From Lepus europaeus (lineage: Eukaryota; Chordata; Mammalia; Lagomorpha; Leporidae), in contig NC_084847.1 of NCBI RefSeq assembly GCF_033115175.1, positions 43,137,905 through 43,201,904 on the forward strand: a stretch of 64,000 nt of DNA, in the 5' to 3' direction. Below, one piece after another: positions 1 to 50,062 of the stretch; within the stretch, counting starts at the first letter, position 1, and every line of letters starts with the position of its first letter. The position numbers and the translations under genes were made by a program. A model generated the notes under the pieces. That model did no database searches. It was not told the origin of the DNA and was given only the letters and a program-made list of their open reading frames with translations.

Positions 1-3000
1 GATGACATTTTATGCACTTGCCTAACGAAAAGAATTTGCTTTTCTCCAAAACCATTTTTACTGTGATTTTCTCGGTCCATTGCATACGAATTCCACCAAG
101 CTTTGTCCGGATATGACTGGATGAAACCAGAAATATCCGGTTGTGTTTTGGCTAACTCAATCCCAGATATAGCTACTGTCTCTGTGTTTGTGTTTTCCGG
201 ATATTATCAACGGACTTTATGGTTTTGAATGTTTTTATCAGGGAACATTTAATTTTATGCTGGGAAACACTAATTGGTTCCACATGAGACATCAACTCTA
301 CACATTCATATTTTCTAGGTAGAATGCTTGAGGAGCTGCGGCAAACAAACATGATATTTCTGTATGTATAGATGACCTTTAAGCACTTGTCTAAGGAAAA
401 GACTTTGCTTTTTCTAAAACCATTTTGACTGTGATTTTCTCAGTCTATTGCATACTAATTCCACCCCACTTTGTGCGGATATGACTGGATGAAACCAGGA
501 ATATCCGGTTGTGCTTTGCCTAACTCAATCGCAGATATTACTACATCCTCTGTGTTTGTGTGTTCTGGATATTATTGACGAGCTTTATTGTTTTGAATAT
601 TTTTATCAGGGAACGTTTAATTTTATACCGTAGAAACACTAATTTATTCCACATGGAGATACCAGCTCTACACATTCGTATTTTCTAGGGAGAAAGCTAG
701 AGGGACTTCGGCAAACAAACATGATATTTCTGTTTGTATAGATGACATTTTACGCACTTGCCATTCGAAAAGACTTTGCTTTTCTCTAAAACCATTTTTA
801 CTGTGATTTTCTCGGTCCATTGCATACGAATTCCCCCATACTTTGTCCGGATATGACTGGATAAAACCAGAAATATCCGGTTGTGTTTTGGCTAACTCAA
901 TCCCAGATATTGCTACAGCCTCTGTGTTTGTGTTTTCTGGATATTATCAAAGGACTTTATGGTTTTGATTTTTTTATCAGGGAATATTTAATTTTGTGCT
1001 GGAAAACACTAATTGGTTCCACATGGGGACAGCAGCACTAAACATTCGTATTTTCAGGGAGAAAGCTAGAGGAACTGCGGCAAACAAACATGATATTTCT
1101 GTTTGTATAGTTGACATTTTATGCACTGCCCGCAAGAAAAGACTTTGCTTTTCTCCAAAATCATTTTTACTGTGATTTCCTCAGTCCATTACATACGAAT
1201 TCCACCCAATTTTTTCCGGATATGACTGGATGAAACCAGGAATATCTGGTTGTGTTTTGGCTTATTATATCCCAGATATTGCTACAGCCTTAGTGTCTGT
1301 GTTTTCTGCATATTATCGATGGATTTTACTGTTTTAATGTTTTTATCGGGGAACATTTAATTTTGTGCTTAGAAACACTAATTGGTTCATCATGGAGACA
1401 CCAGCTCTACACATTTGTATTTTCAAGGGAGAAAACTAGAGGAACTGCGGCAAACAAACATGATATTTCAGTTTGTATAGATGACATTTTTTGCACTTGC
1501 CAAAAGAAAAGACTTTACTTTTCTCCATAAACATTTTTATTGTGATTTTCTCTGTCCATTGCATACGAATTCCACACCACTTTGTCCGCATATGACCTGT
1601 TGAAACCAGAAATATCCGGTTGTGTATTGGCTATCAATCTGAAAGATTGTGAAATCCTCTGTGTTTGTGTTTTCTGGATATTATCGACGTGCTTTACTGT
1701 TTTGAATATTTTTTCAGGGAACATTTAATTTTGTGCTGGGAAACACTAATTGGTTCATCATGTGGACACCAGCTCTACGCATTCATATTTTCTAGGGAGA
1801 AAGCTAGAGGAACTGCGGCAATCAAATATGATATTTCTTTTTGTGTAGATGACATTTTCTGCACTTGCCTAACAAAAAGACTTTGCTTTTCTCCAAAACC
1901 ATTTTTACTGTGATTTTCTCGGTCCATTACATACGAATTCCACACCATTTTACCGGATATGACTGGATGAAAGCAGAAATATCCGGTATTGTTTTGGCTA
2001 ACTCAATCCCAGATATTGCTACAGCCTCTGTGTTTGTGTTTTCCTGACATTATCCATGGACTTTATTGTTTTGAATGTTTTTTATCAGGGAACATTTAAT
2101 TTTGTTCTTGGAAACACTAATGGGTTCCACATGGAGCTAAAAGCTCTACACATTCGTATTTTCTAGGGAGAAAACTAGAGGAACTGCGGCAAACAAACAT
2201 GATATTTCTATTTTCATCGATGACAATTTATGCACTTGCCTAATGAAAAGACTTTGCTTTTCTCTAAAACCATTTTTACTGTGATTTACTCAGTCCATTG
2301 CATATGAATTCCATACCACTTGGTAAGGATATGACTGGATGAAACCAAAAATATCCGGTTGTGTTTTGGCTAACTCAATCAGAGATATTGTGAATGACTC
2401 TGTGTTTGTGTTTTCTGGATATTATCGATGGAGTTTATTATTTTGAATGTTTTTATCAGGGAACATTTAATTTCTTACCGTTGAATCCCTAATTGATTCA
2501 TCATGTGGACACCAGCTCTACGCATTCGTATTTTCTAGGGAGAAAACTAGAGGAACTGCGGCAAACAAACATGATATTTCTGTTTGTATAGATGACATTT
2601 TGTGCACTTGCCCAACGAAAAGAATTTGCTTTTCTCCATAACCATGTTTACTGTGATTTTCTCAGTCCCTTACATATAGATTCCACACGAGTTTAATGGA
2701 AATGACTGGATGATACCAGAAATATCCGGTTGTGTTTTGGCTTACTCAATCCGAAATATTGTGAAAGGTTCTGTGTTTGTGTTTTCCTGATATTATCGAT
2801 GGACTTTATTGTTTTGAATGTTTTTATCATAGATCATTTAATATTGTACTGTTGAAACACTAATTGGTTCCACATGGAGACACCAGCTCTACACATTCGT
2901 ATTTTCTAAGGAGAATGCTAGAGGAACTGTGGCAAACAAACATGATATTTCTGTTTGTATCGATGACATTTGATGCACTTGCCTAACGAAAAGACTTTGC

Positions 3001-4069
3001 TTTTCTCCAAAACCATTTGTACTGTGATTTTCTCGGTCCATTGCATACCAATTCCACACCACTTTGTCTGGATATAACTGGATGAAACCAGCAATATACG
3101 GTTTTGTTTTGGCTAACTTAATCCCAGATATTGCTACAGCCTCTATGTTTGTGTTTTCCGGATATTATCGATGGACTTTATTGTTTTGAATGTTTTTTAT
3201 CAGGGAACATTTAATTTTCTGCTTGGAAACACTAATTGGTTCCACATGGAGACAACAGCTCTACAAATTCGTATTTTCTAGGGAGAAAGCTAGAAGAACT
3301 GCGGCAAACAAACATGATATTTCTGTTTGTATCGATGACATTTTATGCACTTGCCTAACAAAAAGACTTTGCTTTTCTCCAAAACCATTTTTGCTCTGAT
3401 TTTCTGGGTCCATTGCAAACGAATTCCACAACAATTTGTCCAGATATGACTGGATGAAACCAGAAATATCCGGTTGTGTTTTGGCTAACTCAATCCGAAA
3501 TATTGCTACAGCCTGTCTGTTTGTGAATCCTGATATTATCGATGGACTTTATTGTTTTGAATGTTTTTATCAGGGATCATTTAATTTTGTACCGTTGAAA
3601 CACTAATTGGTTCCACCTGGAGACACCAGCTCTACACATTCTTATTTTCTATGGAGAAAGCTAGAGGACCTGTGGCAAACAAAGATGATATTTCTGTTTG
3701 TTTAGATGACATTTTATGCACTTGCCTAACGAAAAGACTTGGCTTTTCTCCAGAACCATTTTTACGCTGATTTTCTCGCTCCATTGCATACGACTTCCAC
3801 CCTAGTTTGTCCAGATATGACTGGATGAAACTGGAAATTTCCGGTTTTGTTTTAGCTAACTCAATCCCAGAGATTGCTACAGCCTCTGTGTTTGTGTTTT
3901 CCGGATATTATCCATGGACTTTATTGTTTTGAATGATTTTTATCGGGGAACATTTTATTTTCAGCTTGGATACAGGAATTGGTTTTACATGTATACACGA
4001 GCTCTACACATTCGTATTTTCTAGGGAGAAAGCTAGAGGAACTGCGGCAAACAAACATGATATTTCTGT
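1..4069. repeat. 371-bp satellite array, left block
   Basis: Eleven head-to-tail monomers can be counted by the recurring GATGACATTTTATGCACTTG start, at about 1, 371, 741, 1110, 1480, 1848, 2219, 2591, 2962, 3334 and 3705, giving units of 368-372 bp. The array runs off the left edge. Monomers differ by scattered substitutions and share an EcoRI-type GAATTC, a CCGGATAT/ATATCCGG dyad and a TTTTCTAGGGAGAAAGCTAGAGGAACTG-like block. The length is close to a centromeric satellite class reported for rabbit, but I cannot confirm identity. No full CENP-B box was seen. Short open frames recur in many monomers but shift phase between units and have no recognisable homologue, so none is called as a gene. 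Confidence 0.95.
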
Positions 4070-4622
4070 TGTAAGACCCCCGAAAGGTATCTCACACTTC
4101 TACCGACCCCAGAAACACGAATTCCAGTCCAATCGATGCAAGTGCATGAGGAAGTTTATTACATCTGCGCAGATGGGCCAACTCTAAGCACAACAGCACC
4201 CTCTAGTGCAGTGCGAGAAGAGAGGCCCCGATCATCAACCGCTCAAAGTATTTAAGGCTTAAAACCACAACATTAGCATATCTCCACAGCATTACACAAA
4301 GGATCACAAGATAAACCGCAGCATGACGAATTATCATAAGTTAAAGGGTTTTTCCTGGGTGAGGGGACAAAAAACCTTGAGCAAGCATAAACACGGGTTC
4401 ATCATGACCAAAAACTTAACATAGCTTCTAAAATAATTATCACATGCTCAATTATCTCATAAAAGCATTAGCACAATCATCACATGTTACAAGGTCAGCT
4501 AAAGTCTAGTTATCTAAAAAAAAATGCATTTTGCAAGCCCAGCCGTTTTGTACAAAAGCAAAACAGTATGCAGTTAGCTCACAAGCAACTCCAATTTAAC
4601 CCCATCCTGCCTCAATTTCACA
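4070..4622 (-). repeat. 3' LTR of the provirus (553 bp)
   Basis: The element begins TG and ends CA when read on either strand and matches the copy at 8,614-9,166 at 550 of 553 positions. I found the three differences by eye, around 4,357 (t/a), 4,397 (t/g) and 4,428 (t/c). Read on the minus strand it has a TATA-like TTAAATA (4,249-4,255) and an AATAAA polyadenylation signal (4,155-4,160), in the usual U3-R-U5 order. As the 3' LTR it would supply the poly(A) site for all viral transcripts, including the two bZIP messages. Confidence 0.95.
4155..4160 (-). terminator. AATAAA poly(A) signal in the 3' LTR
   Basis: TTTATT on the plus strand reads AATAAA on the minus strand, about 90 nt downstream of the TATA-like box. 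That is the expected spacing for an LTR whose R region lies between them. It is the likely 3' end signal of the genomic and spliced RNAs. Confidence 0.75.
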
Positions 4623-4640
4623 TTCCCCCCTTTTCTTTTT
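4623..4640 (-). promoter_or_regulatory. Polypurine tract
   Basis: Immediately upstream of the 3' LTR on the minus strand is an uninterrupted purine run, AAAAAGAAAAGGGGGGAA. This is the standard plus-strand DNA priming site of retroviruses. It confirms the minus orientation and the internal LTR edge. Confidence 0.9.
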
Positions 4641-4713
4641 GTCAAATTTTAATCTTAAAATTTAAGTGAAATTATGGGGATGAGTTATACCATTTGCACC
4701 ACAGCCATTAATA

Positions 4714-5268
4714 TTAGGTCCAAGGGGCAGGGACGCTGTCGGTGCGGACAATGCAGGTGGGGCGGCGCCGGTTCAGTACGAGAATCAGCTGCTGCCGCTC
4801 CTGCTCCAGCTCCCTGACCTGCATCTTTAGTACCGCGTTTCTGAACTCCAGCCGCTCAAACTCCCGCTGCAGGGTCTCCGTGCGCTCCTTCCTCCGGGCC
4901 CACACCGCCTTGTTCTGTTCCAAGCGCCTTTTCCTCCGCTCCTCCTGTTCGTCGAGCTCACTTTCTACAGGTTGGGGCCTCTTGTCCAGGTTTACCTTGT
5001 TAGCGTTGCCGTTGGCGGGGGCGTCTTTCCCATCCTCCGCCTCCTTTACCACTTCTTTCTTTCTTAAGTCCTTGGTGGTGACCTCGGTGCTGGTGTCCAC
5101 GGCTGCGTCAGGCATGCCCAGCTTTATCTCCAGCAAGGGCACGATTATGGTCCCAATGCATTTCAGCTCCTTCACGATCAGAGCCGAGCCGGGCCGTCCG
5201 GTCAGGGGGTCTTGCCCTGGCAGAGAGCCCGTGGTCACAAAAGGGTCGGGAATCTGCCCATGCATCAT
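4714..5268 (-). CDS. JDP2: JDP2-derived bZIP protein with in-frame prothymosin-alpha segment
   Basis: 184 aa, starting at ATG 5,268 with the double Met typical of JDP2. Residues 1-51 match the JDP2 N terminus (MMHGQIPDPFVTTGSLPG), shortened before EIKLG. Residues 52-90 match the N terminus of prothymosin alpha, including its own Met (MPDAAVDTSTEVTTKDL, then DAPANGNAN). KVNLD follows, then JDP2 resumes at residue 96 with KRPQPVESELDEQEERRKRR. The zipper has perfect heptad leucines at 133, 140, 147, 154 and 161, followed by RPTCIVRTDSV. The normal C-terminal tail is replaced by PAPWT. JDP2 is a nuclear AP-1/ATF-family repressor that dimerises with Jun proteins. The basic region here reads NKAVWARRKERTE, four residues shorter than the cellular form, so DNA binding is doubtful. 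No introns: derived from mRNA. A GTG-initiated extension to 5,286 is open but not needed. Confidence 0.93.
   Translation of the reverse strand: MMHGQIPDPFVTTGSLPGQDPLTGRPGSALIVKELKCIGTIIVPLLEIKLGMPDAAVDTSTEVTTKDLRKKEVVKEAEDGKDAPANGNANKVNLDKRPQPVESELDEQEERRKRRLEQNKAVWARRKERTETLQREFERLEFRNAVLKMQVRELEQERQQLILVLNRRRPTCIVRTDSVPAPWT
4984..5115 (-). other. PTMA: Prothymosin-alpha-derived insert within the JDP2 ORF
   Basis: These 132 bp encode residues 52-95 of the chimera. About 39 of them align with the start of prothymosin alpha, an acidic nuclear protein, beginning at its initiator Met. Codons for TTK and DLRKKEVV are contiguous, although I recall an intron near this point in the cellular gene, so the source was a processed transcript or retrocopy. 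The join on each side keeps frame and falls between JDP2 LG and KRPQ, which I suspect is a JDP2 exon junction (inference). The last codons, AAG GTA AAC, resemble a splice donor. The acidic tail of prothymosin is absent. Confidence 0.88.
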
Positions 5269-5286
5269 AGCAGGCCGGCCAGGCAC

Positions 5287-5896
5287 AGGGTCTGAAACGA
5301 GTGTGGGAGCACGAAACTTTTTCTTTATCCTGCAACAAAGGAGGGGAGCCGGGTATGAATACTAAACAGTCTTCAAAAGTCCCACCCCGAGCAGATTCCA
5401 AGAGCCACTCCACTCAAGATAAGACTCTTAAAAGACCGTCCAGTTGAAACTTTGGTGTTGTAAAGTTAAAATCCGAGTTTAAGCTGATAGGCGGCAGCCG
5501 GCCGCCTCCCCATGCGCCCACCAAATCCGCTGCCAGACACAGGTTTACAAACACATCTCTGTGCCTTGCAGCCGATTTTATGAGCACAAAAGCAAGTCTA
5601 CAGGGTAGGGGAAGCATGTTCCGCGGGATAGAAAAATTACAAAAAGGCATCAGAATTTAAAAACAGAAAATACAACAGAGACAAAAACAGAAAACACATC
5701 CCTTGACCCAAATACTTTTTGTGACTTTCACACACCCTCTTCGACTTACTTTAAACATTTTACCATTTTTATTTCAGTCTAGAGTAAACTAGCCATCCGG
5801 ATAAAGTCATCCTTACAAACCATGTCCTTTTCTTATGTAAAAAGCTCTCTCTCTTTTTAACCCTTTTTACCAACAATACTCTTTCCTTTCATGTCC
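5287..5896 (-). other. Spacer between the two captured ORFs
   Basis: About 600 bp follow the CEBPE stop. The first part (5,650-5,896) is AT-rich and without long frames. The second part is moderately GC-rich with an open frame at 5,414-5,650 (78 aa) that I do not recognise. A frame from ATG 5,413 overlaps the JDP2 start out of register, but it would be removed if the acceptor at 5,330 is used. It could be remnant env, host UTR carried in with either gene, or JDP2 leader. Only the last 60 bp are plausibly JDP2 5' UTR. Confidence 0.5.
5329..5353 (-). promoter_or_regulatory. Candidate splice acceptor before the JDP2 ORF
   Basis: The minus strand reads a pyrimidine-rich tract, GGCTCCCCTCCTTTGTTGCAG, with exon sequence starting at 5,329. 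This is 61 nt ahead of the JDP2 ATG. Splicing from the leader donor at 8,553 to here would give a subgenomic message with the JDP2 chimera as first long frame and would remove the out-of-frame ATG at 5,413. Confidence 0.55.
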
Positions 5897-6550
5897 CTAA
5901 TGTTTAGTGACCAATGACATTAAATTTATAACAGCTTTCAAAAACCTGTGCAGGATATTTAGCTCCTGCGTAAGCTGCTCCACGCGCCTGCGCAGCTGCT
6001 CATTCTCTGCCATGTACTGCTGTATCTCCAGGATGCGCCGCTTGGTCTTGCGCACGGCGATATTGTTGCGCTCCCGCCGCAGCCGGTACTCCAGGCTGTC
6101 ATTCACTGCCTTCTTGCCCTCCTGCGAGGGGTCAGCCGAGGAGGGCGCCTCGAGGGGGCTGCTGGGGGGCACGGTGGTGGCCAAGGGGGCCTCGGGGACG
6201 CACTGGGGCTGGCCCGGTGCCGTCAGGGTTGGGGGCAGGTGCACGGGGGGCACAGTGGTGGCCAAGGGGGCCTCGGGGACGCACTGGGGCTGGCCCGGCG
6301 CCGTCAGGGTTGGGGGCAGGTGCACGGTCGTCTGCCCGCAGTGTGCCACCTGGTACTGCAGGGGATTGTAACTGCCCCAGTTGCCACCTCGGCCGCCCTC
6401 TGGCCCCCGGGGCTTCTCCTTCACAGCCACCGTCCTAGGGTTGTAGCTCCCTGGGCTGCTGTCAGGTGCCGACTCCATGGCAGAAAGGTCGGAGAGCAAA
6501 GCCGGGGACTGTTCCTCCTGGAAGCCCTCGAAGCCCTGGGAGGCGAACAT
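5897..6550 (-). CDS. CEBPE: C/EBP-epsilon-derived bZIP protein
   Basis: 217 aa from ATG 6,550. Residues 12-30 ([19 protein letters not shown]) resemble part of the C/EBP-epsilon activation domain. A large internal deletion then joins to [20 protein letters not shown] (31-50) and [16 protein letters not shown] (59-74), diagnostic of this paralogue. Residues 76-102 are duplicated in tandem as 103-129. The bZIP domain starts at [23 protein letters not shown]. Four residues covering the conserved Ser-Arg DNA contacts are missing (RKTKRR), four more are missing in the fork (QQYMAENE), and one Lys is missing in VNDSL. Heptad positions Y179, L186, L193 and L200 are kept. After residue 200 the normal tail is replaced by an unrelated 17 residues. 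The cellular factor (about 281 aa) drives granulocyte maturation. This version should dimerise but bind DNA poorly (inference). No intron. Confidence 0.93.
6164..6325 (-). repeat. 81-bp tandem duplication inside the CEBPE ORF
   Basis: Two adjacent 81 bp copies (6,245-6,325 and 6,164-6,244) encode the same 27 residues, [15 protein letters not shown]...TTVPP. They differ by about two silent bases. The duplication preserves frame and enlarges a proline-rich linker between the CGQT motif and the bZIP domain. Template slippage during reverse transcription is a likely origin. Confidence 0.95.
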
Positions 6551-6830
6551 TTAAGCAAAGCCTGGCGGGGTAGGGAAGTTGCAAAAGAATTAATACTTGG
6601 CCCCAACCAATCTGCCGCGAGTGTGGGTTTCCATACGCAGTTTATATACAGAAGCTTGAACGCAGCGCAAGTCAGCACTGCCCAGTTTGTTATAGTGCTG
6701 TGCCTGTCGCTGCATCCACGCCCCCACATCCAGCCCAGACCAGATCAATCAGCAACATCTCGACCCAGTCCCTAGTGCCAGCTCTCCGTTATGGTTAAAG
6801 CTTCCCCTAGCTGAATAAAGCTTTCTTTAG
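6551..6830 (-). other. Unassigned proviral segment upstream of CEBPE
   Basis: About 280 bp lie between the integrase scrap and the CEBPE start. An open frame crosses it (6,421-6,729) but runs into the CEBPE region out of register and shows no motif I recognise. It may be degenerate pol end, env leader or host 5' UTR captured with CEBPE. GC content is high compared with the surrounding satellite. Confidence 0.4.
6561..6590 (-). promoter_or_regulatory. Candidate splice acceptor before the CEBPE ORF
   Basis: The minus strand reads TTGCAACTTCCCTACCCCGCCAG with exon sequence from 6,561, only 11 nt ahead of the CEBPE ATG at 6,550. The tract is less perfect than the one at 5,330. Use of this site would make CEBPE the first open frame of a spliced message. 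Confidence 0.4.
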
Positions 6831-6854
6831 CTAAACCCCCCTGCACCCTGGCCA

Positions 6855-6940
6855 CCTCTGGCTTGCCCGGGAGACAAAGCTGGGTCCATTATCTGAACCC
6901 AGTACCTTTGGTTGCCCAAATCGGGGAAACATTGGCGCTT
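6855..6940 (-). pseudogene. pol: Integrase catalytic-core fragment (pol remnant)
   Basis: The frame contains PRFGQPKVLGSDNGPSFVSR, the integrase core stretch around the second acidic residue of the DDE triad. It follows the RNase H scrap with only a few residues between, so the rest of RNase H, the zinc-binding N terminus and the first part of the core are deleted. The frame ends in stops within about 30 bp. Non-functional. Confidence 0.85.
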
Positions 6941-6949
6941 CGTCGGAAA

Positions 6950-7131
6950 AGCCTTTGTCTGTTCTGAGTTCCCCATGGGTAGTGGCGAAAGCGTACCTGC
7001 TGTTCTTGTGAATTTTCACCCACTCCTTTTTTCTTGGCTGCACGGAGTGCTTGGTCCATAGCGATCAGCTCTGCCCGCCAAGCAAAGTTCTCGGGAGGGG
7101 GGTTGGAGATAGAAACCAAGACCACTGACCT
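6950..7131 (-). pseudogene. pol: RNase H fragment (pol remnant, frameshifted)
   Basis: Two overlapping frames carry consecutive parts of a gammaretroviral RNase H. One has ENFAWRAELIAMDQALRAAKK (about 7,100-7,033) with the catalytic Glu region. After a shift, the next has KNSRYAFATTHGELRTDKGF (about 7,004-6,950), where the usual catalytic Asp before SRYAF is Asn. The frameshift, the substitution and the missing RT and tether show it is dead. Confidence 0.85.
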
Positions 7132-7500
7132 CGTTCGGCCGCCTCTCACTGTTGTCCCCGTTGTACTCCGGAAGCTAGGGGGATGTCGGCTCACGTGGGC
7201 CCGTCCCGGACACCGCAGGAGGTGATGGAGCATTATCCATAGGAACCTGGGCAGGGCCTGCATCCCCAACACTATCCCCAGCCGTGTGACGGACCACACG
7301 TATCCCAGCAAGGGAGGGGCCGCTGTCGCCCAGCCTCACCACTCCGCTGCTGCCGTCTTTCCTCTCGCTGGCTTGCAGAGGCCGTTTTCGGTCAGTTCAG
7401 TCCCGTGTGGCAGACGTGCACCACTGGATTCCCGTTGTTAGTCGGATCTTAAGCAGACTTGTCCTTTTGGGCACTTCTCTGCGCTTTTGTCGGTCTCCCG
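7132..7500 (-). other. Unassigned GC-rich proviral segment
   Basis: This segment lies between the gag remnant and RNase H. It is GC-rich, and frames across it (for example VRLGDSGPSLAGIRVVRH, then an open stretch to a stop near 7,160) have no motif I recognise from gag, protease or reverse transcriptase. It could be rearranged pol or a further piece of captured host RNA. Confidence 0.4.
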
Positions 7501-7509
7501 GGGTCCCTG

Positions 7510-7585
7510 CCTATTCTGATTTTCCCTTACTCTGCTGCCCTTTAACTGTGGTGGCCAGGATCCTAATTAGTTCCTGTTTCTTAGC
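7510..7585 (-). pseudogene. gag: Possible gag CA/NC-junction remnant
   Basis: A short minus-strand frame reads KKQELIRILATTVKGQQ, which resembles the charged region at the end of gammaretroviral capsid running into nucleocapsid. A stop follows within ten codons and no zinc knuckle is readable. It would sit just where the capsid/nucleocapsid boundary should be if most of gag is deleted. Confidence 0.4.
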
Positions 7586-7759
7586 CCATCTTAAACTTCC
7601 CCTTTTGTTTTTAACTAAATAACTTTAACCCCTTCAGCTAATCTCTTCAGGAGAGTCTGGCAGTAGAGTCTGAGTCTCCTACAGAGTTTCATTTAAGTAT
7701 AGTAAAATTAATGTTAGTAAAACAGGCCCTGCAAGTCCTGTCAGGGCTTGTGATCCCAG

Positions 7760-8056
7760 TTATAAGGTGGAGAAGGGCGGCCAGTTAGAACGGGTCGGGG
7801 GTCCTCCCTTCTCCATTTCATCGGATTCTTCCTCCTCCATTTCTCTTCTGGTTTCCAAAAAGGGCACCGCGGGCCTCTTTGGGAAGCGGGGGATATAAGG
7901 TGCCATCCTAAGGAGGCGAGGGGCTGGCCACTCAGATGTACAGAAACTTGTCCAGTTCTTCTTTTGCACTCTTATAGACAAGTTTTGGGCCCGCTCCCGG
8001 ACCTCTCTCCAATGACCTAAAGTAAGACTCAAAGGTGTAGTTAATTCCTGTCCCAT
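7760..8056 (-). pseudogene. gag: gag matrix start, truncated
   Basis: ATG at 8,056 opens [16 protein letters not shown], the N-myristoylation signal and first helix of a gammaretroviral matrix protein, continuing to [12 protein letters not shown]. The frame runs 98 residues, the last third being Glu- and Pro-rich, then meets TAA at 7,760-7,762. Capsid is absent. A 98 aa myristoylatable matrix peptide could still be made. The upstream in-frame ORF extension to 8,125 lacks matrix similarity, so I chose the MGQ start. Confidence 0.9.
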
Positions 8057-8153
8057 GTTGGAGGGGAAAGGCAAATAAGGAAAGTATATTAGAACACAGA
8101 AACAATCACAAGACTCACAAATCACAAGACTTCACAAAGACACTGCGCGCAAA

Positions 8154-8297
8154 ACCAAGACAAAACCGAAACCACAACTTCCGACGGGAGTGGCTGCTGC
8201 CACCAGCCCTTCTCCCGGGGAAGAAGACCGAGACAAAACTGAAACCAAAACTTCCGACGGGAGTGGCTGCTGCCACCAGCCCCCTTCTCCCGGGGAA
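8154..8297 (-). repeat. 72-bp leader duplication
   Basis: Two imperfect copies in the untranslated leader share ACTTCCGACGGGAGTGGCTG and TCTCCCGGGG. They differ by a few substitutions and a two-base length change in the C run. Confidence 0.85.
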
Positions 8298-8547
8298 GAA
8301 AACCTTTTACCTGGTGGGAGAGCGGCCTAGCCAGCCTCCCCCAAATCACCGCCACTGGAGCATCCCCCAGGGCCCGAGCCAGGGGTCGCGGACACGTCTG
8401 TCCTTTCCTACTACTGGCTCAACTCTTTCGGCGCCTAGCACCCGGACGCCTAGCGCCCGTACAACATAAACCTCTGGTACGTCAAGCGCCCCGGGAAAAA
8501 ATAAAAAAAAATCAACAAAACACACAAAAACACTTAAAACAGCAAAA

Positions 8548-8555
8548 ACTTACCT
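8548..8555 (-). promoter_or_regulatory. Major splice donor
   Basis: The minus strand reads CGGAG|GTAAGTTT, a near-perfect consensus donor in the leader about 45 nt downstream of the primer site. With the acceptors at 6,562 and 5,330 it offers a route to separate CEBPE and JDP2 messages. Confidence 0.75.
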
Positions 8556-8591
8556 CCGATTGGAAAATGGAGCGTGGGTCTGGGGTCTCGA

Positions 8592-8609
8592 ATCCCGGAC
8601 GAGCCCCCA
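8592..8609 (-). promoter_or_regulatory. Primer binding site, tRNA-Pro
   Basis: The minus strand reads TGGGGGCTCGTCCGGGAT four bases after the 5' LTR. This is complementary to the 3' end of proline tRNA, the primer used by murine leukaemia-type gammaretroviruses. It fixes orientation and class. Confidence 0.97.
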
Positions 8610-8613
8610 AGAA

Positions 8614-9166
8614 TGTAAGACCCCCGAAAGGTATCTCACACTTCTACCGACCCCAGAAACACGAATTCCAGTCCAATCGATGCAAGTGCATGAGGAAGTT
8701 TATTACATCTGCGCAGATGGGCCAACTCTAAGCACAACAGCACCCTCTAGTGCAGTGCGAGAAGAGAGGCCCCGATCATCAACCGCTCAAAGTATTTAAG
8801 GCTTAAAACCACAACATTAGCATATCTCCACAGCATTACACAAAGGATCACAAGATAAACCGCAGCATGACGAATTATCATAAGTTAAAGGGTTTTTCCA
8901 GGGTGAGGGGACAAAAAACCTTGAGCAAGCATAAACACGGGGTCATCATGACCAAAAACTTAACATAGCTCCTAAAATAATTATCACATGCTCAATTATC
9001 TCATAAAAGCATTAGCACAATCATCACATGTTACAAGGTCAGCTAAAGTCTAGTTATCTAAAAAAAAATGCATTTTGCAAGCCCAGCCGTTTTGTACAAA
9101 AGCAAAACAGTATGCAGTTAGCTCACAAGCAACTCCAATTTAACCCCATCCTGCCTCAATTTCACA
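8614..9166 (-). repeat. 5' LTR of the provirus (553 bp)
   Basis: Partner of the LTR at 4,070-4,622, with three substitutions between them. The promoter elements read on the minus strand: TATA-like TTAAATA at 8,793-8,799 and AATAAA at 8,699-8,704. It would drive transcription leftward through gag, CEBPE and JDP2. Its outer end abuts the CTGT duplication at 9,167. Confidence 0.95.
8793..8799 (-). promoter_or_regulatory. LTR TATA-like box
   Basis: CCTTAAATACTTTG on the minus strand in the 5' LTR, about 90 nt before AATAAA. Spacing fits a core promoter with transcription starting some 25-30 nt downstream, within R. Confidence 0.55.
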
Positions 9167-9791
9167 CTGTTTGTATAGATGACATTTTATGCACTTGCCT
9201 AACGAAAAGACTTTCCTTTTTTCCAAACCATTTTTACTGTGATTTTCTCGGTCCATTGCCTATGAATTCCACAGACCTTTGTCCGGATATGACTGGATGA
9301 AACCAGAAATATCCGGTTGTGTTTTGGCTAACTCAATCTGAAATATTGCTACAGCCTTTCTGTTTGTGTATTCCTGATATTATCCATGGACTGTATTGTT
9401 TTGAATATTTTTATCAGGGAACATTTAATTTTGTACCATTGAAACACTAATTGGTTCATCATGGGAACACCAGCTCTACACTTTCGTATTTTCTAGGGAG
9501 AAAGCTAGAGGAACTGTGGCAAACAAACATGATATTTACGATTATATAGATGGCATTTTATGCACTTGCCTAACGAAAGACTTTGCTTTTCTCCAAAACC
9601 ATTATTACTGTGATTTTCTCGGTCCATTGCATACGAATTCCACAACACTTTCTCCGGATATGACTGGAGGAAACCAGAAATATCCGGTTGTTTTGTTTAA
9701 TTCAATCCGAAATATTGCGAGAGCCTCTGTGTTTGTGTTTTATGGATATTATCGATGTGCTGTATGGTTTTGAATGTTTTTATCAGGGAAC

Positions 9792-9890
9792 ATTTTTTTT
9801 GACAGGCAGAGTGGACAGTGAGAGAGAGACAGAGAGAAAGGTCTTCCTTTTGCCGTTGGTTCACCCTCCAATGGCCGCCGCGGTAGCCCA
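9792..9890 (-). mobile_element. Truncated lagomorph C SINE inside the satellite
   Basis: TTTTTTTTGACAGGCAGAGTGGACAGTGAGAG through CCAATGGCCGCCGCGG is the 3' part of a C SINE in antisense. It replaces about 114 bp of its host monomer, which resumes at AGATGATATTTCTG, so insertion was accompanied by a deletion or followed by one. Confidence 0.9.
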
Positions 9891-12800
9891 AGATGATATT
9901 TCTGTTTGTATCAATAACATTTTATGCACTTGCCTAACAAAAAGACTTTGCTTTTCTCCAAAACCATTTTTACTGTGATTTTCTCGGTCCATTCCATAGG
10001 AATTCCACATGAATGTGTCCGGATATGACTGGATGAAACCGGAAATATCCGGGTTTTTTTTCGCTAACTCAATCCCAGATATTCCTAAAACCTCTGTGTT
10101 TTCTGGATATTATCAATGGACTTTATTGCTTTGAATGTTTTTATCATGGAATATTTAATTTTGTACCGTTCAAATACTAATTGGTTCATCATGGGGACAC
10201 CAGTTCCACACATTAGTATTTTCTAAGGAGAAAGCAAGAGGAACTGCGGCAAACAAACATTTCATTTCTGTTTGTATAGATGACATTTTATGCACTTGCC
10301 TAACAAAAAGACTTTGCTTTTCTCCAAAACCTTTCTTACTGTGATTTTCTTGGTCCATTGCATACGAATTCCATACCACTTTGTCCGGATATGACTGGAT
10401 GAAAACAAACATATCCAGTTGTGTTTTGGTTAACTCAATCCGAAATATTGTGAAATCCTCTGTGCTTGTGTTTTCTGGATATTTCTATGGATTTTATTGT
10501 TTTGAATGTTTTTCATCAGGGAACATTTAATTTTGTGCTTGGTATCACTAATTGGTTCCACATGGAGACAACAGCTCTACGCATTCGTATTTTCTAGGGA
10601 GAAAGCTAGAGGAACTGTGACAAACAAACATGATATTTCTGTTTGTATAGATGACATTTTATGCAGTTGCCTAACGAAAAGACTTTGCTTTACTCCAAAA
10701 CCATTGTTACTGTGATTTTCTCGGTCCATTGCATACGAAATCCACACTAGTTTGTCCGGATATGACTGGATGAAACCAGAAATACCCAGCTGTGTTTTGG
10801 TTAACCCAATCCGAAATATTGTGAAATCCTCTGTGTTTGTGTTTTCTGGATATTATCGATGCATTTTATTGTTTGGAATGTTTTTATCAGGGAACATTTA
10901 ATTTTCTGCTTGGAAACACTAATTGGTTCATCAAGGGGACACCAGCTCTACACATTCGTATTTTCTAGGGAGAAAGCTAGAGGAACTGTGACAAACAAAC
11001 ATGATATTTCTGTTTGTATAGATGACATTTTATGCAGTTGCCTAACGAAAAGACTTTGCTTTTCTCCAAAACCATTGTTACTGTGATTTTCTCGGTCCAT
11101 TGCATACGAATTCCACACCAGTTTGTCCGGATATGACTGGATGAAAACAGAAATATCTGGTTGTTTTGGCTAACTTAATCCCAGATATTGCTACAGCGTC
11201 TGAGTTTGTGTTTTCTGGATATTATCAATGGACTTTATTGTTTTGACTGTTTTTATCAGGGAACAATTAATTTTGTACCATTGAAACACTAATTGGTACA
11301 TCATGGGGACACCAGGTCCACACATTAGTATTTTCTAGCGAGAAAGATAGAGGAATTGCGACAAACAAACATGATAATTCTGTTTGTATAGATGACATTT
11401 TATGCACTTGCCTAAAGAAAAGACTTTACTTTTCTCCAAAACCATTTTTACTGTGATTTTCTCGGTCCATTGCATACGAATTCCACACTACTTTGTTCGG
11501 ATATGACTGGATGAAACCAGAAATATCTGTTTATATTTTGGCTAACTCAATCCCAGATATTCCTACAGCTTCTGTGTTTGTGTTTTCTGGATATTATCAA
11601 CGGACTTCATTGTTTGAATGATTTTTATCGGTGAACATTTTATTTTGAATTTGGATACAGTAATTGGTTCCACATGGAGACTCCAGCTCCACACATTCAT
11701 ATTTTCTAGGGAGATAGCTAGAGGAACTGCGGCAAGGAAACATGACATTTTTGTTTGTATAGATTATATTTTATGAACTTGCCTAACGAAAAGACTTTGC
11801 TTTTCTCCAAACCATTTTTACTGTTATTATCTCGTTCCATTGCATATGAATTCCACAGCAGTTTGTCTGGATATGACTGGATGAAACTGGAAATATCTAG
11901 TTTTGTTTTGTCTAACTCAATCCCAGATATTGCTACAGCCTCTGTGTTTGTGTATTCTGATATTAGATGGACTGTATTGTTTTGAATGTTTTTTTATCTG
12001 GGAACATTTAATTTTGTGCTTGGAAACATTAATTGGTTCCACAGGGAGACACCAGCTCTACACATTCGTATTTTCTAAGGAGAATGCTAGAGGAACTGCG
12101 GCAAAAAAAACATGATATTTCTGTTTGTATAGATGATATTTTCTGCACTTGCCCAACGAAAAGACTTTGCTTTTCTCTAAATCCATTTTTACTGTGATTT
12201 TCTCGGTCCATTGCATACGAATTCCACACCAGTTTGTCCGGATATTACTGGATGAAACCGGAAAAATCCGGTTTGGTTTTGGCTAACTCAATCCCAGATA
12301 TTGCTACAACTTCTGTGTTTGTGTTTTCTGGATATTATCAATGGATGTTTTTGTTTTCAATGTTTCTTCTCAGGGAACATGTATTTTGAGCTTCGATACA
12401 GTAATTGGTTCCACATGGAGACACCAGCTCTACATATTCGTATTTGCTAGGGAGAAAGCTAGAGGAACGGCGGAAAACAAACTTGATATTTCTCTTAGTA
12501 TAGATGACATTTTATGCATTTGCCTAACGAAAAGACTTTGTTTTTCTCTAAAACCATTTTTACTGTGATTTTCTCGGTACATTGCATACGAATTCCACAC
12601 CAGATTGTCCGGATATGACCGGATGAAGTCGGAAATATCCACTTTTTTTTGCTAACTCAATCCCAGATATTGCTACAGCCTCTGTGTTTGTGTATTCCTG
12701 ATACTATCCACGGACTTTATTGTTTTGAATGATTTTTATCAGGGAATATTTAATTTTGTGCTTGGAATCACTAATTGGTTCCACATGGAGAAACGAGCTC

Positions 12801-13276
12801 TACACTTTCGTATTTTCCAGGGACAAAGCTAGAGGAACTGCGAAAAAGAAGCATGATATTTCTGTTTGTATAGATGACATTTTATACACTTTCCTAACAA
12901 AAAGACTTCGCTTTTCTCCAAAACCATTTTTATTGTGATTTTCTCAGTCTATTGCATACGAATTCCACACCACTTTGTCCGGATATGACTGGATGAAACC
13001 AAAAATATCCGGTTGTGTTTTGGCTAACTCAATCAAAGATATTGCTACAGTCTCTGCGTTTTTGTTTTCTGGATATTATCAAGGACTTTATTGTTTTGAA
13101 TATTTTTTATCAGGAATATTTTATATTGAGCTTGGATACAGTAATTGGTTCCACAAGGCGACACCAGCTCTACATATTCGTATTTTCTAGGGAGAAATCT
13201 AGAGGAACTGCGACAAAGAAACATGATATTTCTGCTTGTATCGATGACATTTTATGCACTTGCCTAACGAAAAGAG

Positions 13277-15131
13277 TTTGCTTTTCTCCAAAACCATTTT
13301 TACTGTGATTTTCTCTGTCCATTGCATATGAATTACACACCCGTTTGTCCGGATATGACTGGATGAAACCAGAAATATCCGGTTGAGTTTTGGCTAACTC
13401 AATACAAAATATTGTGAAAGCCTCTGTTTTTGTGTTATCTGGATATTATCGTTGGACTTTATTGTTTTGAATGCTTTTATCATGGATCATTTAATTTTGT
13501 ACCGTTTAAACACTAATTGGTTCATCATGGAGACACCAGCTCTACACATTCGTATTTTCTAGGGAGAAAGCTAGAGGAACTGTGGCAAACAAATATGATA
13601 TTTCCGTTTGGATCGATGATATTTTATGCACTTGCCTAACGAAAAGACTTTGCTTTTCTCGAAAGCCATTTGTACTGTGATTTTCTCGGTCCATTGCATA
13701 CGAATTCCACACGAGTTTGTCCGGATATGACTAGATGAAACCGGAAATATCCGGTTTTGTTTGGGCTAACTCAATCCCAGATATAGCTACAGCCTCTGTG
13801 TTTGTGTTTTCTGAATATTATCCATGGACTTTATTGTTTTGAATGTTTTTATCAGGGAACATTTATTTTTGTATCATAGAAACAATAATTGGTTCCACAT
13901 GGAGACACCAGCTCTACACATTCGTATATTCTAGGGAGAAAGCTAGAAGAACTGAGGCAAACAAACATGATATTTCTGTTTGTATAGATGACATATTATG
14001 CACTTGCCTAACGAAAAGACTTTGCTTTTCTCCAAAACTATTTTTACTGTGATTTTCTCGGTCCATTGCATACGAATTCCACACCACTTTTTCCGGATAT
14101 GACTGGATGAAACCAGAAATATCCGCTTTTGTTTTTGCTAACTCAATCCGAAATATTGCTACAGCCTCTGGGTTTATGTTTCTGGATATTATCGATGGAC
14201 ATTATTGTTTTGAATGTTTTTATCAGGGAACATTTCATTTTGTACCGTTTAAACACTAATGGGTTCATCATGGGAACATCAGCTCTACACATTCGTATTT
14301 TCTAGGGAGAAAGCTAGAGGAACTGTGGCAAACAAACATATTTCTGTTTGTATAGACGACATTTTATGCACTTGCCTAACGAAAAGACATTGCATTTATC
14401 CAAAACCATTTTTACTGTGATTTTCTCGTTCTATTGCATACAAATTCCACACCATTTGTCCGGATATGACTGGATGAAACAAAAAATATCCGGTTGTGTT
14501 TTGGCTAACTCAATCCGAAATATTGTGAAAGCCTCTGTTTTTGTGTTTTCTGGATATTATCGTTGGACTTTATTGTTTTGAATGTTTTTATCAGGGATCA
14601 TTTAATTTTGTACCGTTTAAACACTAATTGGTTCCACATCGAGACACCAGCTCTACACATTCGTATTTTCTAGGGAGAAAGCTAGAGGAACTGCGACAAA
14701 CAAACATGATATGTTTGTTTGTATCGATGACATTTTATGCACTTGCCTAACGAAAAGACTATGCTATTCTCCATAACCATTTTTACTGTGATTTTCTTGG
14801 TCCATTGCATACGAATTGCACACCACTTTCTCCGTATATGACTGGATGAAACCAGAAATACCCGGTTGTGTTTCGGTTAATTCAATCCGAAATATTGTGA
14901 AATCCTCTGTGTTTGTGTTTTCTGGATATTATCGATGCATTTTATTGTTTTGAATGTTTTTATCAGGGAACATTTCATTTTGTACCGTTCTAACACTAAT
15001 TGGTTCATCAAGGGGACACCAGCTCTACACATTCGTATTTTCTAGGGAGAAAGCTAGAGGAACTGCGACAAACAAACATGATATTTCTGTTTGTATAGAT
15101 GACATTTTATGCAGTTGCCTAACGAAAAAAC
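13277..15131. repeat. Five-monomer higher-order unit, copy 1
   Basis: 1,855 bp (5 x 371) matched at a constant offset of 1,855 by the next copy. Only one substitution was noticed (G at 13,530 versus A at 15,385). Individual monomers within the unit are far more diverged from each other. Confidence 0.93.
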
Positions 15132-16986
15132 TTTGCTTTTCTCCAAAACCATTTTTACTGTGATTTTCTCTGTCCATTGCATATGAATTACACACCCGTT
15201 TGTCCGGATATGACTGGATGAAACCAGAAATATCCGGTTGAGTTTTGGCTAACTCAATACAAAATATTGTGAAAGCCTCTGTTTTTGTGTTATCTGGATA
15301 TTATCGTTGGACTTTATTGTTTTGAATGCTTTTATCATGGATCATTTAATTTTGTACCGTTTAAACACTAATTGGTTCATCATGAAGACACCAGCTCTAC
15401 ACATTCGTATTTTCTAGGGAGAAAGCTAGAGGAACTGTGGCAAACAAATATGATATTTCCGTTTGGATCGATGATATTTTATGCACTTGCCTAACGAAAA
15501 GACTTTGCTTTTCTCGAAAGCCATTTGTACTGTGATTTTCTCGGTCCATTGCATACGAATTCCACACGAGTTTGTCCGGATATGACTAGATGAAACCGGA
15601 AATATCCGGTTTTGTTTGGGCTAACTCAATCCCAGATATAGCTACAGCCTCTGTGTTTGTGTTTTCTGAATATTATCCATGGACTTTATTGTTTTGAATG
15701 TTTTTATCAGGGAACATTTATTTTTGTATCATAGAAACAATAATTGGTTCCACATGGAGACACCAGCTCTACACATTCGTATATTCTAGGGAGAAAGCTA
15801 GAAGAACTGAGGCAAACAAACATGATATTTCTGTTTGTATAGATGACATATTATGCACTTGCCTAACGAAAAGACTTTGCTTTTCTCCAAAACTATTTTT
15901 ACTGTGATTTTCTCGGTCCATTGCATACGAATTCCACACCACTTTTTCCGGATATGACTGGATGAAACCAGAAATATCCGCTTTTGTTTTTGCTAACTCA
16001 ATCCGAAATATTGCTACAGCCTCTGGGTTTATGTTTCTGGATATTATCGATGGACATTATTGTTTTGAATGTTTTTATCAGGGAACATTTCATTTTGTAC
16101 CGTTTAAACACTAATGGGTTCATCATGGGAACATCAGCTCTACACATTCGTATTTTCTAGGGAGAAAGCTAGAGGAACTGTGGCAAACAAACATATTTCT
16201 GTTTGTATAGACGACATTTTATGCACTTGCCTAACGAAAAGACATTGCATTTATCCAAAACCATTTTTACTGTGATTTTCTCGTTCTATTGCATACAAAT
16301 TCCACACCATTTGTCCGGATATGACTGGATGAAACAAAAAATATCCGGTTGTGTTTTGGCTAACTCAATCCGAAATATTGTGAAAGCCTCTGTTTTTGTG
16401 TTTTCTGGATATTATCGTTGGACTTTATTGTTTTGAATGTTTTTATCAGGGATCATTTAATTTTGTACCGTTTAAACACTAATTGGTTCCACATCGAGAC
16501 ACCAGCTCTACACATTCGTATTTTCTAGGGAGAAAGCTAGAGGAACTGCGACAAACAAACATGATATGTTTGTTTGTATCGATGACATTTTATGCACTTG
16601 CCTAACGAAAAGACTATGCTATTCTCCATAACCATTTTTACTGTGATTTTCTTGGTCCATTGCATACGAATTGCACACCACTTTCTCCGTATATGACTGG
16701 ATGAAACCAGAAATACCCGGTTGTGTTTCGGTTAATTCAATCCGAAATATTGTGAAATCCTCTGTGTTTGTGTTTTCTGGATATTATCGATGCATTTTAT
16801 TGTTTTGAATGTTTTTATCAGGGAACATTTCATTTTGTACCGTTCTAACACTAATTGGTTCATCAAGGGGACACCAGCTCTACACATTCGTATTTTCTAG
16901 GGAGAAAGCTAGAGGAACTGCGACAAACAAACATGATATTTCTGTTTGTATAGATGACATTTTATGCAGTTGCCTAACGAAAAAAC
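15132..16986. repeat. Five-monomer higher-order unit, copy 2
   Basis: Second copy of the block at 13,277. Similarity extends to about 17,012 and then breaks at TTTTTAC. It shows recent unequal exchange or amplification in the array. Confidence 0.93.
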
Positions 16987-17755
16987 TTTGCTTTTCTCCA
17001 AAACCATTTTTACACTGATTTTCTCGGTACACTGCATACGAATTCCACACCACTATGTTCGGATGTGACTGGATGAAACCGGAAATATCCGGTTTTGTTG
17101 TGGCTAACTCAATCCCAAATATTGCTACAGCCTCTGTGTTTGTGTTTTCTGGATATTATCAACGGACTTTATTGTTTGAAAGTTTTTTTATCGGTGAACA
17201 TTTTATTTTGAATTTGGATACAGTAATTGGTTCCACATGGAGACACCATCTCCACACATTCATATTTTCTAGGGAGATAGCTAGAGGAACTGCGGCAAAC
17301 AAACATGATATTTCTGTTTGTATAGATGATATTTTATGCACTTGCCTAAAGAAAACACTTTGCTTTTCTCCAAAACCATTTTTACTGTTATTATCTCGTT
17401 CCATTGCATACAAATTCCACACCAATTTGTCCGGATATGACTGGATGAAACCGGAAATATCTGGTTTTCTTTTGGCTAACTCAATCCCAGATATTGCTAC
17501 AGCCTTTGTGTTTTTGTGTTCCTGATATTATCCACTAAGTTTATTGTTCTGAATGTTTTTTAACAGGGAATATTTTATTTTGTGCTTGCAAACACTAAAT
17601 GGTTCCACATGGAGACACCAGCTCTACACATTCGTAATTTCTAGGGAGAAAGCTAGAGGAACTGTGACAAACAAACATGATATTTCTGTTTGTATAGATG
17701 ACATTTTATGCAGTTGCCTAACGAAAAGACTTTGCTTTTCTCCAAAACCATTTTT

Positions 17756-19700
17756 GCTGCCTCTAGGTCTCAGTGTTCAGATCCAGCAAATGGGGAGCAA
17801 AATCCCCACCTTGATCCCTCCACCAGCGCCTGCTGGGGGAGCTGGCAAGATTTTCCATGCCCCTGGGGAAATGGCAGGGCTACTGTTTGGTTGGGGAGAC
17901 CAGGCATCAGGTGGGAACCAGGGCTGTCCTGAAGGCCCAGGAGGCACCATGGCACCCAGAGCCTGGTCTCAAAGGCCTACTTGGCATGGACGTGGGAGCT
18001 GAAATGAGGTGTGATATCTGAGTGCACGCAGAACTCTGATCTAGGACCATGTGACTGCCAATGGCCCTTTGAAGTGCTTTTGGGGCATGTAATTAACTGT
18101 ACCTGAAATATTACTTGATCATTTATGTGGAAAATTAAATTGTGCAGTGTCAGACATGAATAATTGCACAGCAGGGTGTGCAGCATAATACAGCTCCTCC
18201 CCAGTGCTCCAGCCCACCCCCTTCTCCAAGACAAGAGCAGAATTCTTGACTTTTAAACTTTCCCCTTTGTCCTGAAAAGCCTTGTTGTCCTGGGGGAAGG
18301 GCAGAGGGGCAGGGGAGGGGCTTCCTACTGGGGCTTGGGGCTGCCCTAAGGGAACTTCTCTGGGTCCCTGGCCACCTGGTGACTTTGGGCCACACACCTG
18401 GCCATGGCCTCAGCCTCAGTTTCCCCCAACCTTGTGGGAGAGACACATTTGTGGATGATGCCATGGGTATCCCAGGTCTGCCACTGGAGTCTGACAGCTT
18501 CCATGGAGATCCTAAACCCCTGCTACTCAGTGACCTGGGTCCTGATCTTTTCTTCCAGGGTAAGGGTGGAGGTTGGGACAGAGCCCCGTGCCATGAAGAG
18601 ATTTGGGAGCCAAGCAGTCCTGGTTCTGATGCTTATCAGCCATGTGGCTACTCTGAGTCTCAGTTTTCCCACCTGTACAATGGGGATGATTTCCCTCCTG
18701 GGGTTGGAAACACCTGAACCTTTGCACATTCTATTCCACCTTCCAGGGTGCTCTTTCTTCCCCTCTGCTCCTAGTCCTCATTTATCTGTGCTCTGCTCAG
18801 ACATACCTTACTTTTAGGAGGTAATTTTGCTGATCCCTCTGAATTGAACCTTCAGGAAAGTTTCCCTGACCCCTCCCCAGCCTTTCCCCAACTCCCCTCC
18901 CATTACTCATCACTTCCAACCCCCCCCCCACCATGCATTTACTTAATCTGCTTCATCCCAGGGCCTGATACAGTGTGAGGCACAAAACAGTGGCTCTGGA
19001 AGCGGTAGCTGCAAACTGTCTCCATATCTGCCCCAGGCTGTGTGTGTGTGTGACTGTGTGTGCACATCAGAGATGGCCAAGCAGCAACAGTGTGAGCTGG
19101 TGTTGGCTGGGAACTGAGACATTAAACCAGGGCAGATATCTGTCCTAGTTAAGGTACTGGTTAAGATGCCTCCACACCTGCTGTTCTGGATGTCCACGCT
19201 TTAGCCCAGAGGAGTGACCAGGACTGCACCTGCTCAGCCCAGGCTGGGCTTGCAATCCTGGGCCCTGGACTCTCTACACCGACACTCGTTCTCTCCTCTC
19301 CTGCATGGTGCAAGTCAGAGGCAACATGACCACCAGGTGTGGGGTGCCATGATGATTTCATTTATGCAAACATCTTCAAAATGTCCTTCTCCCCCCTTTC
19401 GATTCTAAATGAAACAAAAGCATCTTCAAAGACCCTAAAGGTACATTGGGTCCTAGGCTGTGTGTGTGTTTGTGTGTGTGCATGCACGGTTGGTGGGCTA
19501 TGTTGGCTCTGGTCTGAGGGGAAACTGAGGTAAGGGGTGGGAGCTGTGTTAAGAGTGTGGCTCAAGGTGGGTGTGTGGAGCTCACTGGATGCTTCCTCAA
19601 AGTCCTCCCTCACCCTTGGTGGTCCACATGCTGACTCTCCTGTGGTTGTCCTGAGTCTGCCTGGATAGTGCCTACCTAGCCTTTGCAGGGGGTCGAGAGG
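17756..19700. other. Unique sequence beside the satellite, no gene seen
   Basis: Single-copy-looking DNA starts directly at the satellite edge. It holds MIR-like fragments (18,395-18,440 and 18,595-18,715), a C run at 18,921-18,930 and short TG runs near 19,040 and 19,460. Open frames here are short, overlapping on both strands, and resemble nothing I know. Confidence 0.6.
18595..18715 (+). repeat. MIR-like SINE fragment
   Basis: CCTGGTTCTGATGC...CATGTGGCTACTCTGAGTCTCAGTTTTCCCACCTGTACAATGGGGATGAT follows the core of the ancient mammalian MIR element. Confidence 0.75.
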
Positions 19701-49770: not shown

Positions 49771-50062
49771 TATATTTTTAAAGGATTTATTTATTTGAAA
49801 GGCAGAGTTACAGAGATGGAGGGGGAGAGAGAGAGAGAGAGATCAATCTACCATCCGTTGGTTCACTCTCAAAATGTCCATAACAGCTGGAGCTGGGTCA
49901 ATCAGAAGCCAGGAGCCAGGAGTTTCTTCTGGGTCTCCCATTTGGGTTCAGTGGCCCAAGTACGTGGGCCATCTTCCAATGCTTTCCCAGGCTCATTAGC
50001 AGGGAGCTGGATCAGAAGTGGAGCAGCCAATACTTGTACTGACACCCATATGGGATGCCCTA
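49771..50062 (-). mobile_element. C SINE
   Basis: GGATTTATTTATTTGAAAGGCAGAG to CACCCATATGGGATGCC. Head truncated. Confidence 0.9.

Follow-up and report, generated by a model that had tools for sequence, protein, structure and literature searches.

Captured CEBPE, JDP2 and prothymosin alpha sequences in a multicopy germline gammaretroviral element of the European hare

Structure of the provirus and origin of its host-derived genes

The window analyzed here is a 64-kb stretch of the Lepus europaeus (European hare) genome assembly (C27:43137905-43201904), and the minus strand of its positions 4070 to 9166 carries a gammaretrovirus-type provirus that lies in an array of 372-bp satellite repeats and contains sequences derived from the host basic leucine zipper (bZIP) genes CEBPE and JDP2. 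In virus sense, the order is primer-binding site, splice donor, start of the gag matrix (MA) region, a scrap of integrase, a CEBPE open reading frame (ORF), a 610-base segment and a JDP2 ORF, all between two long terminal repeats (LTRs). The features, in window coordinates, are as follows.

4066-4069: target-site duplication, left copy (CTGT), by sequence comparison
4070-4622, minus: 3' LTR, 553 bp, TG...CA in virus sense, by LTR comparison
4623-4640, minus: polypurine tract adjoining the 3' LTR, seen in the sequence, with its role presumed
4714-5286, minus: JDP2-derived ORF, 190 aa from a GTG, first ATG at 5268, by open frame and protein matches
4984-5115, minus: prothymosin alpha (PTMA) insert of 44 residues within the JDP2 ORF, by profile and PDB matches
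5287-5896, minus: segment separating the two ORFs, parts of which match CEBP-env junction DNA of related copies
5329-5330, minus: predicted strong splice acceptor upstream of JDP2, exon start 5329, with a weaker acceptor at 5291
5897-6550, minus: CEBPE-derived ORF, 217 aa, without SRDK (basic region) and KVLE (hinge)
6164-6327, minus: 81-bp tandem duplication in the CEBPE ORF (27 aa twice), by repeat comparison
6561-6562, minus: predicted splice acceptor ending 11 nt 5' of the CEBPE ATG
6834-7043, minus: integrase (rve) scrap, common to env-bearing relatives, by profile match
7763-8056, minus: gag matrix start, first 44 aa matching MA, then truncated, by profile match
8151-8304, minus: 73-bp tandem repeat in the proviral leader, by repeat comparison
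8553-8554, minus: predicted splice donor CGGAG/GTAAGT (cut at the slash) in the leader
8592-8609, minus: primer-binding site, in the sequence after the 5' LTR
8614-9166, minus: 5' LTR, by LTR comparison
9167-9170: target-site duplication, right copy (CTGT), by sequence comparison

The original prediction, made from the letters of this stretch, was that of an endogenous gammaretrovirus with two captured host bZIP genes in the place of env. Its paired LTRs are borne out, as the two copies differ at 3 of 553 sites and are flanked by the CTGT duplication. The same arrangement of two LTRs with TG...CA termini and a duplicated 4-bp target, characteristic of a class I endogenous retrovirus (ERV), was also seen in the copies on C44, C9 and C21. 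A primer-binding site (TGGGGGCTCGTCCGGGAT) is present 3' of the 5' LTR as predicted and is putatively of the tRNA-Pro type. The predicted gag matrix start is of the murine leukemia virus type and matches Gag_MA (PF01140, E 5.8e-16) and PDB entry 1mn8 (E 1.4e-13). The predicted pol scraps reduce to one integrase scrap that matches rve with an E of 0.001, which is under the cut-off of that family. With a truncated gag and this single scrap of pol, the element is defective in sequence. No env match was found in the window element; gammaretroviral env was found only in related copies.

Both ORFs were correctly attributed in the original prediction. The first ORF has hare "CEBPE-like" and the CEBPE of further vertebrates as its named relatives, and a protein search identified the second ORF as JDP2 derived. 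The host genes have introns after ...LRVLK in CEBPE and after ...VKSE and ...FLQR in JDP2, and the viral ORFs read uninterrupted across these positions and are, therefore, derived from spliced RNA. The host cDNA sits between the integrase scrap and the 3' LTR, and inspection of the sequence revealed no poly(A) at the end of either ORF, while gene-level duplications were not formally searched. The motif APLATTVPP is common to viral and hare CEBPE, and the pika sequence differs there; similarly, in a midpoint-rooted protein tree, in which env-class rows are on long branches, the viral branches are placed beside hare CEBPE and separately from pika, bear, elephant and Tasmanian devil (98/93). A third captured gene had been overlooked: the insert in the JDP2 ORF matches prothymosin (PF03247, E 2.9e-10) and thymosin alpha-1 in PDB (E 2.7e-5). 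Thus, the provirus is confirmed as a lagomorph germline element with captured CEBPE and JDP2 cDNA, and the captured host genes number three, i.e., CEBPE, JDP2 and a piece of PTMA. We considered that the prothymosin part had been added by later recombination and rejected this, since L047, the JDP2 copy least diverged from the host gene (synonymous divergence, dS, 0.088), already has both the insert and the CRNK deletion described below.

Among the best 9 CEBPE-type protein relatives in a search of 114 rows, 8 are from Lepus europaeus, and all 7 viral-type JDP2 relatives among the best 120 of 266 rows are from this species. No viral-type rabbit protein was among the matches listed, in which rows are 90% clusters that may hide members from other species. 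An env-class CEBP ORF used as the protein query matched one fragment only (E up to 1e-12), and scans of IMG/VR revealed no relatives of JDP2 or gag. On the host side, an annotated hare CEBPE-like gene model begins in leader-like sequence, as if the viral leader were spliced into CEBPE. A predicted rabbit JDP2 isoform omits the basic-region exon, and the host itself may therefore make a zipper-only JDP2.

Elsewhere in the window, the satellite array flanks the provirus at 1-4070 and 9167-17759 with units that match at 85%. A short interspersed nuclear element motif, which we take to be of lagomorph type, occurs 26 times with ≤3 mismatches compared to 2.1 occurrences expected. At 50000-50042, a 44-base stretch matches a portion of the JDP2 ORF with 82% identity (E 1.7e-5).

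Copies, gene-content classes and age of the family

As the original prediction had proposed, we looked for other proviral copies in the hare assembly. A genome search with JDP2 gave 53 matches, of which 33 span at least 180 of the 190 residues, and 32 of these 33 are free of stops. The corresponding search with CEBPE, in which the best 150 of 211 candidates were scored, gave 120 matches; 42 span at least 195 of the 217 residues, and 41 of these are stop-free. Merging of the CEBPE rows, with the host gene excluded, resulted in 88 loci, including at least 33 with JDP2 downstream, at least 21 with env downstream and 34 with neither among the matches listed. At the 33 double-gene loci, the JDP2 match starts 1.0-1.6 kb past the start of the CEBPE match, a gag MA match lies 1.4-2.6 kb upstream at 25, and both ORFs are near-full and stop-free at 26. 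Of the 45 JDP2 rows that entered the merging, 12 have no CEBP match in front. A search with the LTR returned 1657 first-look candidates, the best 40 of which were scored. The loci include tandem or duplicated copies on C103, C634 and perhaps C185. On C103 (~99650-117106), CEBP-like copies recur every 4364 bases as if whole units had been amplified in tandem, and C634 also holds several; on C223 (~4357553-4378766), gag matrix matches every 5269 bases form a further tandem array of a related element.

Based on gene content, we distinguish four classes. In class (i), CEBP is followed by env, which at 15 of the 21 loci matches without stops within a frame 689-776 aa long; in L039, env matches TLV_coat (E 1.2e-32). 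Class (ii), to which the window provirus belongs, has CEBP followed by JDP2 and no env match. Class (iii) has CEBP and no JDP2 match; because L029 retains residues 171-186 of viral JDP2, some copies of this class are deletion products. In class (iv), JDP2 is found without CEBP, either downstream of an env surface piece (L047) or, in L046, before env and running into a C-terminal piece of integrase of the murine leukemia virus type (E 2.4e-4, below cut-off). We also considered whether the copies with env might be intact viruses that had gained an accessory gene. This was rejected: at the 17 of the 21 loci with a gag MA match, that match lies only 1.6-2.3 kb before CEBP, and most of pol is therefore missing from env-bearing copies too.

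In related copies, the DNA that matches the segment separating the two window ORFs is located in the CEBP-env interval or at the beginning of env, and the description of the ORFs as lying in the place of env is therefore only partly right. Eleven env-class loci (C1, two on C6, C10, C303, C3 and five on C185) contain the window integrase scrap at 93-97% identity, and many double-gene loci contain it at 89-97%, while in other loci, e.g., C21 and C44:14.27M, it is ≤74% identical or in pieces; in many copies, it bears stops. This pattern suggests that the classes share a defective ancestor and later underwent recombination.

All ten further double-gene loci that we read have LTR pairs, and target duplications were found wherever both flanks were readable, the C1 piece stopping too early to show its full duplication. 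Because the duplicated flanks differ from locus to locus, the loci are separate integrations. An assembly artefact, which the original prediction had named as the condition that would overturn the capture, is hardly compatible with this many loci with their own target duplications. If the rate is assumed to lie between 2.2e-9 and 4.5e-9 per site per year, the three LTR differences date the window provirus to ~0.6-1.2 million years. Internal differences are absent from 7 of the 11 LTR pairs (C9, C1, C5, C12, C13, C20 and C10), and the spread is therefore very recent. The LTRs of the first six of these measure 553-686 bp, and the only mismatch of the C10 pair is in the flank. The remaining pairs differ at 2 sites (C44), at 1 site plus a gap (C21) and at ~7 sites plus a gap (C27:30.0M); for C10 and C27:30.0M, the LTR boundary was not found, and these mismatch counts may include flank bases.

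Altered bZIP proteins, selection and splice signals

The host CEBPE core from basic region to zipper has 29 residues. Among 37 viral CEBP ORFs, this core has 21 residues in 18, 25 in 13, 28 in 5 and 29 in 1, and in the sole ORF with 29 residues, the invariant Asn is replaced by His. Accordingly, each of the 37 departs from the host in the length of the core, in its invariant residues or in both. The 4-residue loss corresponds to KVLE in the hinge, and the 8-residue class also lacks SRDK in the basic region. In JDP2, CRNK is deleted in 22 of 22 rows and in L046, with the junction at ~4893/4894 in the window ORF. The SRDK and CRNK deletions are at homologous positions, which we take to be those of the C/S-R pair of the bZIP signature. 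By comparison, the leucines of the zipper are conserved at 108 of 108 positions in CEBP (36 of 38 rows readable) and at 114 of 115 in JDP2 (23 of 25 rows readable). Because the spacing between basic region and zipper is fixed in bZIP proteins, most of the viral CEBP and JDP2 proteins would very probably have lost normal DNA binding and retained pairing.

Using a codon model, we obtained ratios of nonsynonymous to synonymous change (omega) among copies of 0.42 from 30 distinct CEBPE sequences and 0.50 from 22 of JDP2, in agreement with pairwise sums (0.445 and 0.514). At kappa 6, the log-likelihood for CEBPE is −2597.3 at omega 0.4 vs −2622.6 at omega 1, and that for JDP2 is −2043.9 at omega 0.5 vs −2056.3 at omega 1. 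L048 was set aside because it has a stop, and L029, L042 and L046 were excluded from the JDP2 codon set and L039-L045 from the CEBPE codon set. In line with selection on the frames, indels in multiples of three account for 11 of 14 events in the ORFs vs 7 of 42 between them (20 loci compared to the window copy; Fisher p 5e-5). The hare elements are, in sum, a family that is large, has amplified very recently and is subject to purifying selection, rather than an isolated fossil. The original prediction of a fossil of, or a relict source for, a double-transducing defective virus is supported as to the germline provirus with captured cDNA; an isolated fossil it is not, given dozens of loci, recent spread and selection.

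The predicted splice signals score highly using approximate matrices: the leader donor is at the 99.97 percentile of GT sites in the window, and the acceptors before JDP2 and CEBPE are at the 99.92 and 96.98 percentiles of AG sites, respectively. The acceptor AG is kept in 21 of 21 rows before CEBPE and in 20 of 21 before JDP2; the donor is present in all 6 leaders whose sequence extends to it, four other pieces being too short. From one donor and two acceptors, each located just before one bZIP ORF, we infer two subgenomic messages.

Proposed mechanism, rival explanations and known retroviruses

We consider it probable that these elements represent a defective hare germline lineage that depends on a helper, is amplifying and carries bZIP inhibitors capable of dimerization only. 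The copies carry CEBPE cDNA along with JDP2 cDNA that is split by the PTMA piece, and most of gag and pol is missing from them; a helper would supply Gag-Pol and let the element re-enter the germline many times. Splicing of the leader donor to either acceptor would give one message per bZIP ORF, and the zipper-retaining products would form dimers unable to bind DNA properly. Such dimers would titrate C/EBP, Jun and ATF-type partners and block differentiation, or AP-1 and C/EBP programs, in the infected cell, with the reading frames being maintained by selection during virus replication. Dominant-negative v-ErbA reportedly has a comparable effect.

Several observations weigh against this proposal. 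Stops are present in 12 of 120 CEBPE and 4 of 53 JDP2 rows, mostly in shorter matches. In five CEBP ORFs that adjoin env or a part of it, the basic residues are retained and the hinge is only one residue shorter than in the host, and loss of DNA binding is less certain for these. Omega relative to the host gene is 0.67-1.29 for CEBPE (31 rows), a range in which early relaxed and positive selection are indistinguishable, and 0.56-1.05 for JDP2 (22 rows); that these values are higher than among copies agrees with a phase of fast change upon capture and constraint thereafter. The loci were picked by protein match, which biases toward open frames and in-frame indels. Finally, the helper is a postulated one, and what we found are gag-containing frames of at least 569 aa at 18 MA matches among the best 150 of 1263 candidates. 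These long frames indicate that less broken putative relatives exist in the hare genome.

If the element were a classical acutely transforming virus, the captured proteins would retain DNA binding and function as active (onco)transcription factors. PMC6028512 describes JDP2 overexpression as oncogenic in T-cell acute lymphoblastic leukemia and Jdp2 as a common retroviral integration site, and the five CEBP ORFs with retained basic-region residues also agree with this idea. We nevertheless find it unlikely, as 31 of 37 CEBP ORFs have a core that is shorter by 4 or 8 residues, CRNK is missing from all 22 JDP2 rows and Pfam does not recognize a bZIP domain in the window JDP2 ORF at E values up to 0.1. 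Because basic regions or hinges are altered in both proteins, the label "oncogenic transcription factor" is probably misapplied. The genes could also be passengers of a defective element that is passively copied by helper machinery, in which case the frames would be open through youth alone; several copies are indeed young and nearly identical, and the neighboring integrase scrap has stops in many copies. An omega well under 1, the preponderance of in-frame indels in the ORFs compared to the DNA between them and the conserved splice acceptors make this quite unlikely.

There is a small chance that the hare has domesticated the ORFs as genes of its own, e.g., as inhibitors of immune or germ-cell programs. 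Many viral bZIP ORFs are annotated as hare genes, and selection is purifying, but it spans many new independent insertions, which points to a replicating element rather than one fixed locus. That processed pseudogenes of CEBPE and JDP2 landed in an ordinary ERV, or that the structure is an assembly join, would account for the missing host introns; it is hardly credible given the same gene order at 33 loci with gag upstream at 25, the ten additional loci with LTR pairs and, wherever both flanks were readable, target duplications, and the lack of poly(A) after either ORF. 

For the proposal of a helper-dependent lineage with inhibitory cargo, we see about even chances that it extends to a living, germline-amplifying class with a selected pair of dimerization-only bZIP inhibitors, i.e., an "A-ZIP" virus directed against C/EBP and AP-1, in which DNA binding was lost by homologous 4-residue deletions and comparable changes arose by other routes in env-keeping sister lineages.

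Acutely transforming avian retroviruses with two host genes include avian erythroblastosis virus (AEV; erbA-erbB), E26 (myb-ets) and MH2 (mil-myc). Like these, the hare element is a defective retrovirus with two host genes in place of viral genes, and one AEV gene also encodes a dominant-negative transcription factor. Unlike them, it is gammaretroviral, mammalian, multicopy in the germline and in possession of three host genes, and both of its main products belong to the bZIP proteins and are altered in the part that binds DNA. v-fos of Finkel-Biskis-Jinkins murine sarcoma virus is likewise a bZIP cDNA captured by a gammaretrovirus, but it retains DNA binding, whereas the basic region or hinge is altered in the hare element. 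CHOP/DDIT3 and the designed proteins A-C/EBP and A-Fos combine a leucine zipper with an altered basic region and act as dominant negatives; those are cellular or designed, whereas the hare proteins are viral. HBZ of human T-cell leukemia virus type 1 (HTLV-1) is also a bZIP protein encoded by a retrovirus; however, it is antisense and deltaretroviral and is not known to have a host-gene origin, whereas the hare genes are sense-strand host cDNA. Retroviral capture of a C/EBP or JDP2 gene is not known.

In the open full-text literature, taken as titles and abstract openings and without subscription journals and bioRxiv, no account of a retrovirus with CEBPE or JDP2, or of a family of this kind in hares, was found, which agrees with the original prediction; "endogenous retrovirus", CEBPE and JDP2 are mentioned together only in a single-cell method paper. 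HBZ blocks recruitment of host ATF/CREB factors according to PMC6950816. Simian sarcoma virus with v-sis is a further retrovirus carrying a captured host gene, and a review states that such a virus would be lost along with its helper unless it had entered the germ line (PMC13297096). Unlike simian sarcoma virus, the hare element has entered the germline and amplified there. Compared to known transducing retroviruses, the hare element stands out by its amplification in the germline, by the capture of three genes and by bZIP proteins that are under selection and altered in their DNA-binding parts.

Oncogene-carrying retroviruses are usually regarded as short-lived accidents that die with the tumor and the helper. 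The hare virus entered a mammalian germline, its captured genes are open at dozens of loci, and it has split into gene-content classes that let its evolution be read stepwise relative to the host genes. That the DNA-binding part changed repeatedly while the zipper was retained suggests that selection favored interference rather than activation. It becomes testable whether hares have heritable loci that can interfere with myeloid or lymphoid differentiation and whether the copies that are almost identical continue to spread.

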